Shown here: positions 1,755-49,935 of the stretch, piece by piece
Layout: every line of letters starts with the position of its first letter
How positions within the stretch are numbered: position 1 is the stretch's first letter
Source of the DNA: Clostridiales bacterium
GTDB lineage: Bacteria > Bacillota > Clostridia > Lachnospirales > WQUN01
Assembly (NCBI GenBank): GCA_031287685.1
Contig: JAITSQ010000010.1
Location: 1-64,000, forward strand
DNA length: 64,000 nucleotides
Direction: 5' to 3'
Notes under the pieces: model-generated
Seen by the model: the letters and a program-made list of their open reading frames with translations, nothing else
Databases searched by the model: none
What the model was told of the DNA's origin: nothing
Translations under genes and position numbers: made by a program

Positions 1755-3941
1755 CTATTCATTACGCTCCGTTATTTTCAGCGCTAACATTGTAATGTCG
1801 TCCGCTTGCTCCGCGCCGGACGCGAAACGCTCAACTTCCGCCTGTATGCCTGTTATCAGCTTTTGCGGCGCGTCCTCGCGCCCCGCGTTAAAAGCTCGCA
1901 TCAGCCGGGCCTCCGAAAAAAGTTCGCCGCCGCCATTCGCCGCCTCCGTCACGCCGTCCGTATACATAAACAGCGTATCTCCCGGCGCAAGCGTAGTTTC
2001 TTCTTGAGTATAAACCGTGTCCTCCATACCCGCCAGCACAAAGCCGGGGCGGCTTGAGCGCAGCCATTCGCCTTGCCCGGTGTTTTTTGGCTCTTGGCGC
2101 CGAGCCAAAAAGCCCCCTTCTTCCCCGCCGCCGCGCCTTATAATCGGCGGGTTATGTCCCGCGTTTACATATGAAAACCTGCCTGTGCTGATTTCGAGGT
2201 ATCCCATAAACACCGTGACAAACATACAGGTATCGTTGTTTTCGCAAAGCGACGCGTTCACGATTTCAAACACTCGTTTTGGAGACCACCCGCCAAGCTG
2301 AGCGATGTTTTTAAGCAATGTGCGCGCGACCACCATAAACATCGCGGCCGGTATGCCCTTGCCGGAAACGTCCGCTATCAGCACCGCCAAATGGTCGTCG
2401 TCCGTCATAAAAAAATCGTAAAAATCGCCGCCGACCGCTTTGGCGGGTTTCATTACCGCGTACATTTCCGGGAACAGGCTGAAATTACGCGGCAGCATAG
2501 AAGACTGTATCGCGCCCGCTATTTTAAGCTCCGCGCGTTCGCGCGCCTCGATGATGGCGGCGCGTTCAGCTTCTGTAATGTAGTCCTTCAGGCTGCGCGC
2601 CATTTTGTTTACAGAGGCGGCAAGCGTCCCAATCTCATCTTCCGCGCGGATATTAATCTCCTCGTCCAAAAATCCGTTAGCTATGCGTAAAACACCCTCC
2701 TGAAGCTGCGTGATCGGGCGCGTAATGGTTTTTGAAAACTTAATTGAAAACGCGATGATTACGCAAAAAGACAGCAGAAATACGGCAAAAAATTTAAGCA
2801 TAATTTTATTAATCGCCTTATCGAAAACCCGCGTCGTTCCGTCTTTTAGATTAGTTATCTGCGCTTCCATAATATGCTTTGTAACCTCCGTCTCTCTGAC
2901 GGGCAGCACAAAGCATATGCTCCAGTTTAAGGTTTTAAGGGGATAATAGGCGGCGTACACAAGTTCTTCGTCTATCTTCAGTTTGCGTAACCCGGACTTT
3001 CCGGAGGTCATCTCGGACGCCAGCGCCCTGAGTTCCTCGTTGGGGCTGTTGAGATAGTCTTCTCCCGTTACGGCGCCGTCGCCGCGGGCTGTCAAATTAC
3101 TGTTCGAGCGCTGATTTATAATCGCTTGCCCTCGGCTGTCCAGCAAAAAGGCGTACCCCTTCGCTCCTACCTCAGCATATCTTACTATGCCGTCTATTTC
3201 CGAGAGCATCGCGTCTGTGCCAGCGACTCCGCGAAAAATTTTCTCCTCGCCGCGAAGCTCGTAAATCGGCACGCTGCAGGTGATTTCCGCGCCGTATCCG
3301 TCTGAATAGTTCACAATCTCGCTCCAATACGCCGCGCCGGATTTTTTCGCGCCCTCATACCAATAACGCGCGCGCGGGTCGTAGCCGCGCAGCGGCGCGG
3401 CGGCGGCGGGATCTGAGTCCACCGCTATAAAACTGCCTTTTTCCGTGCCTATATAGCTTGCGATTATCGGTGAGTTTTCCTTCAAAACCGGGATCAGAGC
3501 GCCGCGAATGTTGCCCATAAGCAGCAGTTCCTCCCGCGCGTCCTCCCCCCCCTCTGGGGACAGGCTGTAACGCACGTTCTCCGAGGCGTCCAGGGCGTCT
3601 TGCCAGTTTGTGAGCGGCGCCGGCGCGTATTCCTTTTCGTGGGAATAAATGTAGGACGCGCTTTTCGCGACCGTCTCGCTTTGACGCTGAACCTTTTGCA
3701 GTTCGCTATCTACAAGCGCGACGCATTGTTCCGCGACTGTCCGCAGCGTATCAATCGCATGAGCCCTGTATATGGAAAACGTTTCCTCCGACATCTCCTG
3801 ACTAAGCTCGTTTATGTTGCCGATTGCGCTGTCGCGCATATTAAACGCGCCTATTATGCTGAATACGCCAAGAAACAGCAAACCGCTTAATGATATCGCT
3901 GAAATTATCCCCATTATTCTTAATTTGATGCTCTTTTTCAC
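1755..3941 (-). CDS. Membrane sensor PP2C phosphatase (Cache-HAMP-SpoIIE)
   Basis: A 728-residue receptor phosphatase. One membrane segment lies at about residues 9-32 (IMGIISAISLSGLLFLGVF), followed by a long extracytoplasmic Cache-like sensor to about 375, a second membrane segment (KFFAVFLLSFCVIIAFSI), a HAMP domain, a short helical linker and a C-terminal PP2C/SpoIIE domain. Metal-binding motifs are visible: GGDFYDFF, ADVSGKG and ADDITMLAL. It should dephosphorylate a STAS protein, and one is encoded 665 bp away. The start is a GTG with an AGGGGG about 12 bases upstream, a loose fit. It begins 31 bp after the Sfp-type gene and is probably co-transcribed with the NRPS. A 50 bp palindromic repeat is embedded in frame at residues 607-623, just after the conserved NAGHNPP. 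Confidence 0.9.
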   Translation of the reverse strand: MKKSIKLRIMGIISAISLSGLLFLGVFSIIGAFNMRDSAIGNINELSQEMSEETFSIYRAHAIDTLRTVAEQCVALVDSELQKVQRQSETVAKSASYIYSHEKEYAPAPLTNWQDALDASENVRYSLSPEGGEDAREELLLMGNIRGALIPVLKENSPIIASYIGTEKGSFIAVDSDPAAAAPLRGYDPRARYWYEGAKKSGAAYWSEIVNYSDGYGAEITCSVPIYELRGEEKIFRGVAGTDAMLSEIDGIVRYAEVGAKGYAFLLDSRGQAIINQRSNSNLTARGDGAVTGEDYLNSPNEELRALASEMTSGKSGLRKLKIDEELVYAAYYPLKTLNWSICFVLPVRETEVTKHIMEAQITNLKDGTTRVFDKAINKIMLKFFAVFLLSFCVIIAFSIKFSKTITRPITQLQEGVLRIANGFLDEEINIRAEDEIGTLAASVNKMARSLKDYITEAERAAIIEARERAELKIAGAIQSSMLPRNFSLFPEMYAVMKPAKAVGGDFYDFFMTDDDHLAVLIADVSGKGIPAAMFMVVARTLLKNIAQLGGWSPKRVFEIVNASLCENNDTCMFVTVFMGYLEISTGRFSYVNAGHNPPIIRRGGGEEGGFLARRQEPKNTGQGEWLRSSRPGFVLAGMEDTVYTQEETTLAPGDTLFMYTDGVTEAANGGGELFSEARLMRAFNAGREDAPQKLITGIQAEVERFASGAEQADDITMLALKITERNE
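2073..2122 (-). repeat. Palindromic unit inserted in frame in the PP2C gene
   Basis: The plus strand reads GCCCGGTGTTTTTTGGCTC, a short loop, GAGCCAAAAAGCCCCCTTCTT: the arms of the palindromic family with a GGCTC/GAGCC core. Translated in the phosphatase frame it gives GGFLARRQEPKNTG, a different frame from the NRPS copies. The reading frame continues intact on both sides. Confidence 0.85.
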
Positions 3942-6001: not shown

Positions 6002-9000
6002 TTAATCAAAATACCCTAACCCGCTAATACTTCCCGCAAAATCGGCAAGATATTTATCCGACGTGAGCGGCCACTTGAACCCAAGGCGTAACAGCGCCTG
6101 CGAGGTATAGCGGTTGTCCGCGCCGATTACGGTCATCTCTTTTTCGCCCGGCGAGTTTTGATAGGCGATCAGAGCGGACAGCTTCTTGACTTTCTTAGCG
6201 TCCTGAACCGCCTTGCTGTAGGCGCGGGCAAACTCCTCGCGCTCGCACGGCTTTACGTCAATGCCGCTCTCGTTCAGCACAGACACCACATCGCCCATAT
6301 ACACGCTGTGGTCGTTGTACGCGTGAAACACGGTACACTCTTTAGGAGTGACGGCAAGTTTGAGGATAGCCGCCGCCGTGCAGTCAATGGGCGAAAACTC
6401 AACCTCTCTCGCCATATCGCCGTAGGGGATACAGCCTAAAATGTGAAACGCCCGCAGCCGCCCGAGGAAGCTGTTTGTGTTGAAATTAGCCTGAAACTCG
6501 CCGTCCTCCGAACGCGCCATAAGGTTGCCCACGCGTATCACCTTAGCGTCCAAACCCTCCAGCGCCGCCTCAAGCACAAGGCGCTCCGCGAGGAACTTGC
6601 TGTTTACATATTTGTTGGACAAATCCTGCCCGAAATACAGCTTTTTTTCATCCAGCAATACGTCCTTGGGCGGATTGCCTCCAACGCTCATGCCCGCGAC
6701 GCTGGTGGTGGATATTTGCACGTATCCGCAGCCCGTCCTCCTGCTGAAAGCCAGCCCGTTTCTCACGCCGCCGATGTTTACGTCCTCGATGTCCGTACCC
6801 GCCGAGAAGTGTTTGACGTTCGCGGCGCAATTAAACAACGTGTCGACGCGTACTTTTTCCAGCTTTTCAAACACCTCCGCGCCGCGAATATCCCCGTCCA
6901 GCACGACAATCCGCGAACCAAACAGCTCGTCAAACGCATCGCTGAAATAATAAAACAGCATATTTTTGAGCCGCGTTTGGGCGGCGAGTTTGCCGCCGCG
7001 CACCACGCAATACGCGACGCCGCCGCAGCTCCGCAAATACTCCCTAAGCAGATGTACGCCCAAAAAGCCTGTCGCGCCTGTTATGCACACATTGCCAACC
7101 TCGCGCCGTTTGCCTTCCAGGAGGGAATCAATTGTGTTAGCCTGAAGCAGCTTGCGAAGCGCGTCATAGTCGTAATTATCAACCGCGTCCGCGGCGCTCG
7201 GCGTTTTTTGCGAACGCTCGCGGCCGCCGCGAAAAGCCGCTTCCTTCGCGTCCGGCGGCGCGGCGTTCGCAAGCAGACCCAGCTCGCGCGGGGTCGGGTT
7301 GTCGAACACGTCGCCGTAGCTTATCTGATATCCTTTGCCGCTTGCTTCAATCGTAACCTGCGTCACAAGCAAAGACGTGCCGCCGATGTCAAAGAAGTTG
7401 TCCTCCGCTCCCACCCGCTCAAGGCCCAGAGCCTTCGCGAAGATAGCGCAGTACGCCTCCTCCGCTTCGGTCGCGGGCGGCGCGTAGTCGTTTAACGCCA
7501 GCAGCTTAGCTTCGGGCAGCGCGCGGAGGTCTATTTTGCCGTTAGGGGTCATAGGCAGGCTGTCCAGCTGCAAATACGCTGTGGGGAGCATATACTTCGC
7601 CAGCGTGAGCGACAGCCGCTGACGCAGTTTGTCGGGCGCGAGGGCTGAGCCGGCGGTGTAGTACGCGCACAAATGCTCCTGTCCGTTTATGCTCTTAATC
7701 AGCGCGACGCTGCGCTTCACTCCCTCGCAAGCGCCCAGCGTGTTCTCGACTTCGCCCAGTTCGATACGCAGTCCGCGCAGTTTCACCTGTCCGTCGTTTC
7801 TGCCCAGTATAACGACTTCCCCGTCGTCTGTCCATTTGGCGATGTCTCCGGATTTATAGTAACGCGCGCCGCCGTAGGCGACAAACCGCTCAGCCGTCAG
7901 TTCGGGCTTATTCAGGTAGCCGCGCCCGACGCCCCTGCCGCCTATCCACAGTTCGCCGACGACTCCCGCCGGAAGCGGGTTGCCGTCTATATCCATAACC
8001 TGCTCCGCGACGCCGTCAACCGGCGCTCCTACCGTCACAACGCCGCTGTCAAGAAGGGGGCTTTTTGGCGGGGCATACATGGCCGCCCGGTTCTCAACCC
8101 GGAGACGCAAGCATTGCGTCGGAGGGCCAGCAAGAAGTTTCACGTTGCAGTCTATTGTTGTTTCGGTCGGACCGTAGCTGTTAAATATTTCCGCGTCCGT
8201 AAGCTCGCGCAGTTTGCCATACAGCCCGCTCGGGAACTTCTCCCCGCCGACCATAAGCATCTTGCAGCCGCCAAGCGCCTTTTTCATATCGGGGTGCTCC
8301 ATATATTGCGTAAGCACGGAGGGAGTCGCCCACAGGAAGTTAGCGCCCGTCCGGAACATAAGCTCCGCCAGCGCGGCGGGGTTGCGCGCCTGCTCCTCGT
8401 CCGCGAGCGCGAGGCTCAACCCGTTAAACAGCGTCATTATGACGTTGCCCGTGAACACGTCAAAGGACACCGTGGTAATGACCGCCGCTCTGCACCTGTG
8501 CCTGACCGCCGCGGCCTGTTGTATGTTGCGCTCAAAGGGCGCCGCCCAGCCCACCGCCGATTTGTGCTCAATCATCACGCCCTTCGGCTTGCCTGTTGAG
8601 CCGGAGGTGTAGATGACGTAGCACAAATTGCCGGGAGCCACGGCGACGCTTGGCCGCGCGGCGTTTGCGTGCGCGAGGAGCTTATCCGCGTCAAGCCCGT
8701 TGCCGAAGGCGTCTTTATTTTTCGCGTCCGTCAGTATATACTTCGCTCCGCTGTCCGCTATGATGTGGTCTATGCGCTCTTTGGGATAGGCGGGGTCTAT
8801 CGGAATGTACGCGCCCCCCGCTTTCAGTATGCCGAGTATCGAAAAAAGCACCCTGCTGTCCCTGGGCAGAAAAAACGCTATACGGTCCTCCGGCTTCACG
8901 CCCAGCTCCAGCAGCGCGTTAGCGACGCGGTTCGCGCCGTCGTTGAGCTGTTCGTAAGTAAACTCTCCGTCCGCGGCAATGAGAGCGACTGCGGAGGGCG

Positions 9001-12000
9001 CGGACGCCGCGTGCCGCTCAAAGAGTTCGTGCAGGGCGGGGGCGGGCAGCGGCTGTTCGGGGCCGCAAAAACTCGCGACGCGTTCAAGCTGTTTCTCCGT
9101 GGCGACCACAAAACCGCCCAGCTGCTTGTCTAAGTTTGCCGCGAACCTCTCCGCCACATGGGCCGCACAGTCCGCGAACGTCCGCATTGTGCTGTCTTTA
9201 AACAGCGACTTGTCATATCTGACCGTAAGCGTGTAACCGCCGGAAGCCTCCCCCACCGAAATATCCACGGGGAACTTCGCGGCGTCCAGCCGCACGGCTT
9301 CCGCCTTTGCCGCCAGGCCGCTGTTCTGTATCACGCCGCCCTGGTACGCGAACATTATTTGAGGTTCGTAAGAGTAGTCGGCGGCAATCCGCGTATACGG
9401 ATACGCCGAATGTTCCATAGTTTCAAGCATAACGCGCTGGACGTCCGCGAGATACCGCCGCGCCGAGCTGGCGGGGGGTATGTCAATCACAAGGGGCAGC
9501 GTTTTCACAAGCATACCCAGATTGCTTTGCAAATGAGCCTTGTCCCTGCCGTTTATGATTGTCGCCAGCCGCGCCTGCCTTACGTTCGCGAAGCGGCTTG
9601 CCGTGTAGCTAACCGCGCCCAGGAACAAGCTGGCGGGAGTGACTGCAAGCTGTTTCAGCGCGCCGGAGAGCTTGTCTTCGGGTATAAACGCGCTCACGCT
9701 CGCGGGCTCGCTCGGTGTTTTTTGGCGGCTGAATCCCCGCCCAAAAGCCCCCTCCTTGCTCGGTGTTTTTTGGCGGCCGAATCCCCGCCCAAAAGCCCCC
9801 TCCTTGCTCGGTGTTTTTTGGCGGCCGAAGCTCCGCCCAAAAGCCCCCTCCTCGCCCGCGTCTTCGGCGGCCGCGTGGTCGGCTGGTATGGCGGTCGCGC
9901 CCTCTCCGTCGCTTAAAAGCGAAACGAAGTACGCTTTCGCGCCGTCGTACTCAGCGTCTCCCTCACGCGGCTCCGCAAGCGATAAGTCAAAACTTGTGAA
10001 GGTTTCCGCTTCAAGAGCCTCGCCCGCCAGCGCCTTTGACAGGTCGCGCAGGAATATGTCCGCGGACGCGCCGTCAAAGATGATGTGGTGGAAGTCCATA
10101 AGCAGATGCACGGCTTTTTCGGTGCGGTACAATTCAACGCGGAACAGCGGCCCCTCAAAAAGGTTGAACGGACGCGCAAAAGCGTCGCGCAGCTTCTCGT
10201 ATTCAGCCTCCGCGACAGAGCCGCAGGGTATTTCAACCGGATATTCGTCCCGCCGCTCCTGACACACCTCGCCGTCTTTCATAACGAGGCGCGTCTTGAT
10301 GTAGGTATGCGCGGCTATGACGGCAAGCGCGGCTTTTTTGAGGTCGTCAAGGCTGGTTTCAGCGTCAAGCTCAAGCGCGAAAGGAATGTTGTACACAACC
10401 GACGCGGGCTGCCTGGCGCAGGCGAAATAAACGCCCAGCTGATTTTGCGTCAAGGGGTATACCTCACGTTTATCAAAGGCCGTCAGCGCGTAGTCGTCGT
10501 TTCGCTCCACCAGCGCTGCGAGTTTTTCTATTGTTTTTTCACGCATTATGTCGGTGGCGGCTATGGTCTTGCCCGTTTGTTTGGTTATCCGCGCCGCGAA
10601 CTTGATAGACGACAGCGACGTCAGCCCCATATACATCAAGTCGTTGGTAATGCCAAGTTCCGTCACGCCGAGAATATCCCGGGCTATGTCAAGCAGCTGT
10701 TTCTGCGCCTCCGTCTGCGGCGGAACCGATTCCTCGGCGGCTACCTCTATCTTCGGCAGTTTCCTTTTGTCAACCTTGCCGTTGGGGGTCAAGGGGATTT
10801 TATCTATTTGCGTAGTCGTCGCCGGCACCATATAAGGCGGCAGTTTTTGCTCAATAAACTGATTGAGCGCCTTTATGTCCACGTCCTTCCGCGACACGAT
10901 ATAAGCGACGGCGCGTTTGCCGCCGCCGGGCGCGTCCTGCGCGACTACGGAAGCCGCCGTTATGTCCGGGTACTGGAGTATGCGCCCCTCGATTTCCGTC
11001 AGCTCCACGCGGAAACCGCGTATCTTTATTTGGAAATCCCGCCGCCCCACAAAGTCAAGGACGCCGTCCGGCAGGAAGCGCGCCACGTCGCCCGTTTTGT
11101 ACATTACCGCCGTCTCTTCGCTTGTCCGGAACGGATTGGGCACAAACTTCTCCGCCGTCAGCTCCGGGCGGTTCAGATAGCCGGGGGACACCTGCCGCCC
11201 GGCTATACATAGTTCGCCCGCCGCGCCGACAGGCGCAAGCTCACCCTGTTTATCAAGCACGTACAGCTCCATATTGGGCAGGGCGCGGCCTACGGGCACG
11301 CGGTCATTTAAGCCCTCCACCTTGAAGAAGCTTGACGCGACGGTACATTCGGTCGGGCCGTAGAGATTGCATAAGCCGTACCCCTTCGGCGGCGCGATAG
11401 GCGTCAGCGTTTCCCCGCCCACCGACAGCGCGCGGAGCGAGCGGTTGTCCATATTCTCCGCGAACGCCCGCCCCATTTGCGTGGTGAGGAACGCCACGGT
11501 GATTTTGTTCCGGTTGTAATAGTCGTTTATGCCCGCCAAATCCAGCCGCGTTTCCTCGGGAATTATGTGCGCCGCGCCGCCGCTGATTAAAGCGGGATAC
11601 ACGTCCATCATAGACGCGTCAAAGCCGAAACTGGCGTAGGCGGCGGCGTTATCCGCTTGCGTCAGCTTGAAATAATTACGGTACCAGGTGCAGTAGTTCA
11701 CTACGTTTTTTTGCGACAGCATAACGCCTTTGGGCGTCCCCGTCGTGCCGGAGGTGTAAAGCAGAATCATTAAGTCGCCGGGCGCGGGCGGGTCCGGCAA
11801 AGCGTCCGCGGGGGGCAGCGCGGCGATATCGCCCGTATACAGATACTCTCCGCTCCCGCCGGTCAGCTCCAGGGCGATTGCTTCGTCTTTGATAATTACA
11901 GCCGCGTTCGCGTCGGAAACCATAAACGACAGGCGCTCCGCGGGGTAGGTCGGGTCAAGCGGGAGATACGCCGCGCCGCTTTTCATAACGCCCAGGGCGC

Positions 12001-17279: not shown

Positions 17280-17436
17280 GCTCGGCGTTTTTTCGCGCCT
17301 AATGCCGCGCGAAAAAGCCGCCTCCTTGCCCGGCGTTTTACGCCGCCTTTAAAAAATTTAGGCCGCGCAAAGCCCCCTCCTTGCCCGGCGTTTTACGCGC
17401 CTATAAAAAATTTAGCCCGCGCAAAGCCCCCTCCTC
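17280..17436. repeat. Three tandem palindromic units with divergent cores
   Basis: Units at 17280-17327, 17328-17382 and 17383-17436 in the same orientation. All begin GCYCGGCGTTTT and end AAGCCSCCTCCTT or a close variant. The cores differ: one contains CGCGCCTAATGCCGCGCG, while the others contain TTTAAAAAATTTA-type inner sequences flanked by GC-rich arms. They occupy most of the gap between the ftsH stop and the CDF start. Confidence 0.8.
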
Positions 17437-17477
17437 GCCCGGCAAGCCCGCGCGTTTTCGGCCGCAAGCTCGGGGCG

Positions 17478-21995: not shown

Positions 21996-22490
21996 ACTAC
22001 AGCCGTTCTTACTTGAAAAAGGCTGAAAGCGAGAACGAAACGCGCGGCAAGCAGGTGGCTTTTTGGCGGGGCAGACACGGCCGCCCGGTTCTCAACCCGG
22101 AGACGCGTTTAGGTTTTGCGCGGGCGCGAACGTTTGCGGCGGCTTTTTCGCGAAGCGAAAATAGCGGGAGCAAGAAGGTGGCTTTTTCGGGCGGCTTTAA
22201 GCCCGAAAAAACACCGAGCAAGAAGGGGGCTTTTTCGAGCGGCTTTAAGCTCGAAAAAACGCCGAGCAAGAAGGGGGCTTTTTCGGCAGGCATTAGTGCC
22301 GAAAAAACACCGAGCAAATGTGGGGAAGCCGAAGGCGTGTTTAGTGTTCGCGCGGGCACGAACGTTTGCGACAGCTTTTTCGCGAAGCGAAAATAGCGGA
22401 AACAAACGCGGAGAACCGCCAAAAAACACCGACCATCAGGCGCGTTTCGGGCGACGCTTAAAGCTTATTTTCAAGTTGAACGGCTGTAGT
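21996..22490. mobile_element. MITE-like element with ACTACAGCCGTTC inverted ends
   Basis: ACTACAGCCGTTC at 21996-22008 and its perfect complement at 22478-22490 bracket 495 bp; the match extends inward as ACTTGAAAA/TTTTCAAG with one base of slippage. The interior carries no credible gene. It contains the GGCCGCCCGGTTCTCAACC segment shared with 8050-8136, two TTTTCGCGAAGCGAAAA hairpins and three tandem palindromic units. Minus-strand translation through the right end supplies the last codons and stop of the transglycosylase gene. No transposase is encoded. Confidence 0.8.
22171..22316. repeat. Three tandem palindromic units with compensating stems
   Basis: Forward units at about 22171-22219, 22220-22266 and 22267-22316. 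Arms are nearly identical (AAGAAGGKGGCTTTTT and AAAAAACRCCGAGC). The stems are CGGGC/GCCCG, CGAGC/GCTCG and CGGCA/TGCCG, around loops GGCTTTAA, GGCTTTAA and GGCATTAG. Base changes on one side are matched on the other, so pairing itself is conserved. Confidence 0.92.
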
Positions 22491-31479: not shown

Positions 31480-31568
31480 TATAGCGATTCCGTTTGAAAT
31501 AAGCCGCGTTCCTCGCCGGAAACGCGTTTCTTTCTCGAAACCGGCAAGTCAAACATGGAATTGCTCTA
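31480..31568. mobile_element. Short MITE-like element, AGAGCAATTCC family
   Basis: TATAGCGATTCCGTTTGA (31480-31497) and TCAAACATGGAATTGCTCTA (31549-31568) are near-complementary ends of an 89 bp non-coding element lying between the two HtrA-type genes. The same ends occur at 49432-49935, 53790-53892 and 58901-58977. Confidence 0.8.
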
Positions 31569-49431: not shown

Positions 49432-49935
49432 TAGAGCAATTCCATGTTTGACTTGCCGCTTTCGAGCCGGAAATCGCGGGCAAGAAGGCGGCTTTTTCGG
49501 CAGGCATTAGTGCCGAAAAAACGCCGAGCAAGAAGGTGGCTTTTTCGGCAGGCCAACTTGCTCGGTGTTTTGGATTGTCTAAAAAGATTTAGACAATCCA
49601 AAGCCCCCTTCTTGGCCGCCCGGTTTTAACCCGGAGACGCGTTTAGGTTTTGTGCGGGCACGAGCATTTGCGGCAGCTTTTTCGCAGAGCGAAAATAGCG
49701 AGAGCAAATGTGGGGAGGCACAAAACCTGCGTCGAAGGGTTTTTAACCCGAAGGCGTGTTTAGTGTTCGCGCGGCTTTAGGCGCGAACATTGCGCCGGAG
49801 GGCCAGCAAGCGGAGCTTGCGAGAGGGCATTAGTGCCGAAAAAACGCCGAGCAAGAAGGTGGCTTTCATTTGTCCAAACTTGTTTTAGACAAACGAAAAC
49901 GCCCTGCGCAGCTTATGTCAAACGGAATTGCTATA
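49432..49935. mobile_element. 504 bp MITE-like element packed with palindromic units
   Basis: TAGAGCAATTCCATGTTTGAC at the left end and GTCAAACGGAATTGCTATA (49917-49935) at the right end are near-complementary. Inside are a forward unit (49481-49529), a truncated one (to 49555), a reversed unit with TTGTCTAAA core (49557-49614), the GGCCGCCCGGTTTTAACCC segment shared with 22081 and 8090, nested arms GGTTTTGTGC...GCACAAAACC, and a final unit with TTTGTCCAAACTTG (49855-49902). No credible gene. Confidence 0.82.

Follow-up and report, generated by a model that had tools for sequence, protein, structure and literature searches.

The three-copy repeat that lies in frame within an NRPS gene of the analysed window (the whole stretch of DNA under study, 64,000 nucleotides) very probably derives from a mobile 48-bp palindromic element by tandem expansion: the element would have arrived by one insertion and grown by two duplications. 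The preliminary description had treated the repeated unit as a feature of the NRPS condensation domain; a covariance model built on it instead matched all 150 candidates scored in the host genome, hence at least 150 copies, located between genes, within MITE-like carriers and inside other genes. In two conserved genes (NRPS, in its second condensation domain C2, and PolC) the in-frame insertion is absent from homologues, and the excess over these homologues equals whole units. The features of the window are collected in Table 1.

Table 1. Palindromic units and associated features in the window (positions are those of the window).
Feature	Position	Strand	Remarks
NRPS gene, 3061 aa	6002..15187	(-)	Layout A-T-C-A-T-C-A-T-reductase; ORF and domain search
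Tandem array of three in-frame palindromic units of 48 bp (48 residues)	9710..9853	(-)	Situated in the loop between the lobes of C2
5' (sense) flank CGCGGGC of the NRPS array	9854..9860	(-)	Complementary to the 3' flank GCCCGCG
3' (sense) flank GCCCGCG of the NRPS array	9701..9707	(-)	Would pair with CGCGGGC into a stem that encloses the array
Second in-frame insertion of this NRPS, located in its third adenylation domain	8018..8137	(-)	Antisense piece of a composite element
Degenerate unit-like stretch KEAAFRGGRERSQKTPS, linker before the reductase	7196..7246	(-)	Recognised by eye; not reported by the unit's covariance model
One in-frame unit within the gene of a SpoIIE-type phosphatase (1755-3941)	2075..2124	(-)	Other frame, reads EEGGFLARRQEPKNTGQ
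Intergenic units and a 54-bp tandem	17280..17443	(-)	TRF, unit model
Intergenic array of three 48-bp units within a larger composite repeat	22156..22405	(+)	TRF, unit model
MITE-like carrier of nested units, bounded by TAGAGCAATTCCATGTTTGA / TCAAACGGAATTGCTATA	49432..49935	(+)	

An in-frame array between the lobes of a condensation domain

The search for tandem repeats in the window (TRF) delimited positions 9710-9852, with a period of 48, 3.0 copies, 96% matches and no indels, which bears out the earlier claim of an exact, in-frame 48-bp array in three copies that is read as three 16-residue repeats. In the minus-strand reading the units are EEGAFGRSFGRQKTPS / KEGAFGRGFGRQKTPS / KEGAFGRGFSRQKTPS, and they differ from each other at 3, 4 and 1 bases (pairwise comparisons). 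The ORF that carries them combines adenylation, carrier and condensation domains with a terminal reductase, and resembles the NCBIfam model of the aureusimine synthetase AusA with a score below the AusA cut-off; its organization is similar to that of an aureusimine synthetase with one extra module and a terminal reductase.

When C2 was aligned with homologues (15 of the 19 homologous loci found, all from public genomes), a 48-column gap opened at the array and accounted for the whole excess of 48 residues. The array columns were empty in 12 of the 15 homologues and held one to four stray residues in the remaining three, while the HHIIFDG motif was intact and situated upstream of the array. The phmmer comparison of C2 with 2jgp broke into two stretches (5-210 and 281-456), and solved C domains are split at the same place. 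The AlphaFold2 model of C2 (16-row alignment, mean pLDDT 78.7) positions the insert (residues 217-264) between a helix of the first lobe (183-197) and a strand (266-274), with pLDDT below 50 over residues 212-264 and mostly above 85 in the outer blocks on both sides. The alignment gap and the modelled position agree with the earlier placement of the array in the linker between the condensation-domain lobes. The insert is thereby predicted to form a disordered loop, which would probably act as a passive linker and leave the condensation domain active.

A repeat native to the C domain was rejected, as it is absent from the C2 homologues (alignment, n=15). That a coding repeat was born in the NRPS from its own linker, with a role at the protein level and no relation to the intergenic copies, would account for three nearly identical in-frame copies, but we regard it as extremely improbable: the genome has no fewer than 150 copies of the unit with the same ends, most of them away from long ORFs and some in unrelated proteins, and the C-domain homologues contain no native copy of it.

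The array is bounded by CGCGGGC and GAGCCCGCG, and the carriers often have CGCGGGC before their units and CGCG after them; the site in the NRPS may already have been palindromic before the insertion. Folded as single-stranded DNA, the 165-nt array with its flanks was no more stable than shuffled sequences (z -0.95). The second insertion in this gene (Table 1) has a close counterpart in the window, as positions 8050-8108 and 22048-22106 are 93% identical.

Synergistaceae stand among the nearest C-domain relatives (two MAGs, with 35 and 34% identity in the C2 alignment) although the host is clostridial by PolC. A Synergistota host, as proposed from the best NRPS relatives, was rejected: the PolC query matched two Synergistaceae genomes weakly (30-32% identity, over part of the length), against 53-62% identity in Ruminococcus, Butyrivibrio and other clostridial genomes (eight named genomes tried). 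There are hints that the NRPS may have been acquired by horizontal transfer.

A palindromic family dispersed through the host genome

The units are laid out as GCAAGAAGGNGGC, a hairpin and CRCCGRGC (consensus of the 48-bp element: AAGRAGGNGGC, hairpin, CRCCGRGC). The 10-bp stem was paired in 97.3% of 410 cells (43 aligned units, 41 of them distinct), with four of the ten pairs invariant. Compensatory double changes were registered in 68 cells, compared to 24.8 in shuffles, and the covariation score of the stem (0.398) stood against 0.092 in shuffles and at most 0.083 when the partner was slid by 1-3 columns. Within the draft genome of the host (1.88 Mb, 37 contigs, 97.1% complete), the 144-bp array used as DNA query recovered 46 matches, and a strict-geometry pattern applied to the stretches taken around matches delimited 131 units at distinct places, distributed in 99 arrays (73 single, 20 double and 6 triple). 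Copies of either orientation were found, as well as arrays and copies nested within other copies.

Units were located within about 100 bases of the ends of eight contigs (labelled C2, C5, C8, C16, C25, C27, C31 and C33), some of which end in units (e.g., C33:6-148, C25:24-103, C27:29-110). The draft assembly probably broke at these places because of the repeat family, and array copy numbers may be collapsed in it because contigs often end in units. Hence, the earlier assertion that the NRPS copies are not assembly duplicates stands in part: a simple duplicate is unlikely because the copies differ in sequence, yet the exact copy number is uncertain. An assembly artefact as the full explanation was rejected, since the copies differ and units of this kind are present on many contigs.

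The DNA search detected the family in none of 40 relatives, and the RNA model, run with stricter filters and with 15-20 candidates scored per genome, in none of 294 other genomes of the order and none of the 397 other genomes drawn from the phylum. Six genomes with NRPS relatives were negative in a search run without a positive control, and the exact pattern (which misses variant units, and for which the host's own genome was possibly excluded) had no match in 84,980 species genomes or viral contigs. No second genome of the host genus appeared in any of these searches. The strong covariation described above would also be expected of functional RNA, and the units could be under selection as regulatory sites in RNA or DNA, acting as terminators, stability hairpins or signals for the nucleoid or for replication, with the copies in genes as by-products. 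We consider this quite improbable, considering the presence of units in both orientations, their arrays and mutual nesting, the lack of matches in the other genomes drawn from the phylum, and that Rfam at gathering scores gave no match in the window. A known RNA family was rejected on the same Rfam result.

Many units sit between carrier ends of the types TAGAGCAATTCCATGTTTGA and TCAAACGGAATTGCTATA, which we take to be of IS630 type. Inverted repeats terminate the carriers, with TA at each end; this holds for the carriers and not for the 48-bp unit itself. Units and other palindromes are inserted into each other's loops (e.g., in the carrier at 49432-49935), and at window positions 31568, 49432 and 53892 we noted a MITE-like family whose inner parts are asymmetric and whose ends read TAGAGCAATTCC...GGAATTGCTATA. 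The unit could be a MITE subunit that depends on an IS630/Tc1-mariner-like enzyme, rides in TA-flanked carriers and escapes into genes by recombination. Its association with carriers is in favour of this scenario, as 16 of the 21 paired carriers in the window and stretches L001-L031 contain units (the other five, 80-126 nt long, do not; two further left ends have no mate), and the end motif occurs genome-wide in 39 exact copies (75 with up to 2 mismatches) against a single one for the reversed control. Nevertheless, DDE_3 (PF13358, IS630-type) had no match in the host genome, while it was found in some of 14 control genomes, and no carrier ends lie within 60 bases on either side of the NRPS, PolC and FolC copies, so that we hold this scenario to be possible but doubtful.

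That the unit is a REP-type element whose single-stranded hairpins a RAYT/TnpA HUH transposase mobilises appears unlikely, and less probable than the MITE subunit. REP features (in the available parts of PMC3733652) include short hairpins whose stems compensate, clustering and copies within genes, and insertion beside a short fixed sequence that equals the unit's own end (RGC) would also be in line with such an element. On the other hand, Y1_Tnp (PF01797, HUH/RAYT) had no match in the 97% complete host genome, although 5 of the 14 control genomes were positive, and the alignment reads GGC-TTTTT...AAAAAA-CRCC at the foot of the stem, where a GTAG or CGTC tag is absent. The presence of an HUH or IS630-type transposase in the genome was rejected, given the absence of Y1_Tnp and DDE_3 matches.

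Units in other genes and the probable growth of arrays

Out of 169 units, 45 lie within an ORF that is 150 aa or longer; we read 13 of these ORFs together with PolC (14 in total) and judged the NRPS separately. A homologous protein extends on both sides of the insert in four of the 14 (PolC, FolC, pyridoxamine kinase and SpoIIE) and only before it in one (M15 peptidase), while in another the unit occupies a linker of a protein without family. In the remaining eight the unit is found at one end or the other of the ORF, and these may be start or stop artefacts.

PolC carries two units in frame near its C-terminus, with a 48-bp spacing (L126 2453-2550; C15:15140-15237), and shows there 33 residues opposite 1 in the PolC of G. 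kaustophilus. The insert (32 net residues) is absent from the loci of 22 relatives (21 PolC and one distant paralogue, L169), which stem from a search of 31 genomes (including the host's own) that had a match in 23. The first ten bases of the PolC unit (ACGGAGGCGG) are present in one insert-free relative (L149); the idea of a 10-bp target duplication would fit this pair of loci, and such a duplication was not seen at carrier sites. FolC has one unit near its C-terminus (about +15 net residues over TIGR01499), and the pyridoxamine kinase (L026 1144-2391) holds a nested cluster of several palindromes that amounts to about 136 extra residues (gap of ~160 residues against 24 in the comparison with 3mbh). 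The unit of the SpoIIE-type phosphatase is situated within the catalytic domain, at a place where solved relatives show no clean gap.

Open reading frames were counted in the 130 units whose flanks are complete: four of the six frames are open in 120, 126, 124 and 128 units, and the other two in 25 and 52. Neighbouring units are spaced by 48 bp in 25 of 32 pairs (including the NRPS array and the PolC pair) and by 47 bp in 7; the 47-bp arrays that were looked at (L012, L013 and L028, a small sample) are not among the genes read. Neighbours share their stems far above expectation (mean identity 0.847 vs 0.553 for random pairs, with none of 2000 resamplings as high), and 16 of the 32 neighbour pairs have identical stems, compared to 7.2% of random pairs. 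Judged from these sequences, copying in place is therefore common, in agreement with the earlier suggestion of local duplication after one insertion. The stems of the other 16 pairs differ, so that arrays must also receive new hairpins or have their stems rewritten, and duplication alone is insufficient for all arrays. GC precedes the first unit in 71 of the 99 arrays, and in 67 of them the last unit ends in, or is followed by, GAGC or GGGC; the PolC and SpoIIE units have no GC in front and the junctions are not uniform.

We reason that the array began with one unit, which inserted after an RGC sequence in the inter-lobe loop of C2, at a site that presumably tolerates extra residues, and that two duplications in 48-bp steps, by slippage or unequal recombination, would then have produced the present array. 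Because one period spans 16 codons and the unit lacks stops in four of its six frames, each of these steps would keep the gene open, so that insertions and expansions in surface loops could survive selection. Template switching from arm to arm at replication, or the loss of imperfect copies, is the probable reason why the stems stay perfect. In yeast genes template switching is reported to make the arms identical and to invert the spacer (accessible text of PMC8604942), and an equivalent process could rewrite stems here. One unit (L021 1844-1893), with which this may be compared, keeps its stem intact around a loop of opposite orientation, which looks like an inverted spacer.

A more far-reaching proposal, which we put forward tentatively and with considerable doubt, is that the family might represent a new class of mobile hairpin. 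Such an element would be 48 bp long and have no HUH/IS630 transposase in the genome; it would insert next to its own terminal RGC, build tandem arrays on itself, nest in palindromes and perfect its stems by template switching. It would also colonise loops of essential proteins (PolC), which it would lengthen in 16-residue steps by virtue of its 16-codon period and mostly open frames.

Relation to known coding palindromes

The unit is, as far as nucleotide data can tell, a protein-coding palindromic element, i.e. a palindrome dispersed at many genomic places and also inserted in frame. We file the family among these elements (its translation being predicted), and neither as a Rickettsia palindromic element (RPE) nor as a GTAG/CGTC REP, the latter because the tag was looked for and is absent. 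The phenomenon of coding palindromes is already known, and the literature search returned no account of this family, its host, the 48-bp coding period or the carriers. As the length of the unit matches the codon period and it expands in tandem within genes, the rule that proteins can carry selfish DNA, provided that it keeps the frame and lies in a loop, becomes testable with copy number as the variable, and the NRPS condensation domain and the replicative polymerase offer natural length variants in 16-residue steps.

RPEs were reportedly described by Ogata et al. in 2000 and 2002. They are the model case of palindromes lying in frame in conserved genes, as presented in the available sections of PMC10969869 and PMC2229807, and the present units resemble what these sections describe in being dispersed palindromes, both intergenic and in frame within unrelated conserved genes. 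They differ from RPEs (about 105-150 bp and ten families, in the same sections) in being 48 bp long, a multiple of three, and often tandem, as well as in being nested in MITE-like carriers and in having a PolC-bearing clostridial-type host; likeness and difference are both judged here by description.

According to the accessible portions of PMC3733652, REPs located in ORFs (single or grouped) encode 20-82 residues, including in the DnaE gene of R. conorii, and intragenic GTAG/CGTC REPs are known from Opitutus terrae, Thauera and R. conorii, often in DNA replication and repair genes; a RAYT (Y1_Tnp) gene is expected for the GTAG type, and the CGTC type is said there to lack one. Compared with those portions, the present family shares short hairpins with alternative complementary stems and single or grouped occurrence in ORFs (DnaE there, PolC here). 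It differs from GTAG/CGTC REPs by having no tag, no RAYT-type transposase in the genome and a fixed 48-bp tandem period. The protein-coding palindromes of Wolbachia and Methanocaldococcus jannaschii, with which the family is compared by description (available text of PMC2996958), are likewise coding palindromic repeats outside Rickettsia. The same text presents PARCELs, which are also tandem palindromic repeats that code; they are amphipathic and linked to membrane proteins, whereas the insert described here is predicted to be disordered and several of the proteins that host units are housekeeping enzymes. Coding palindromes, previously found in Rickettsia, Wolbachia, a methanogen and REP-rich genomes, are now met in a PolC-bearing genome of clostridial type.
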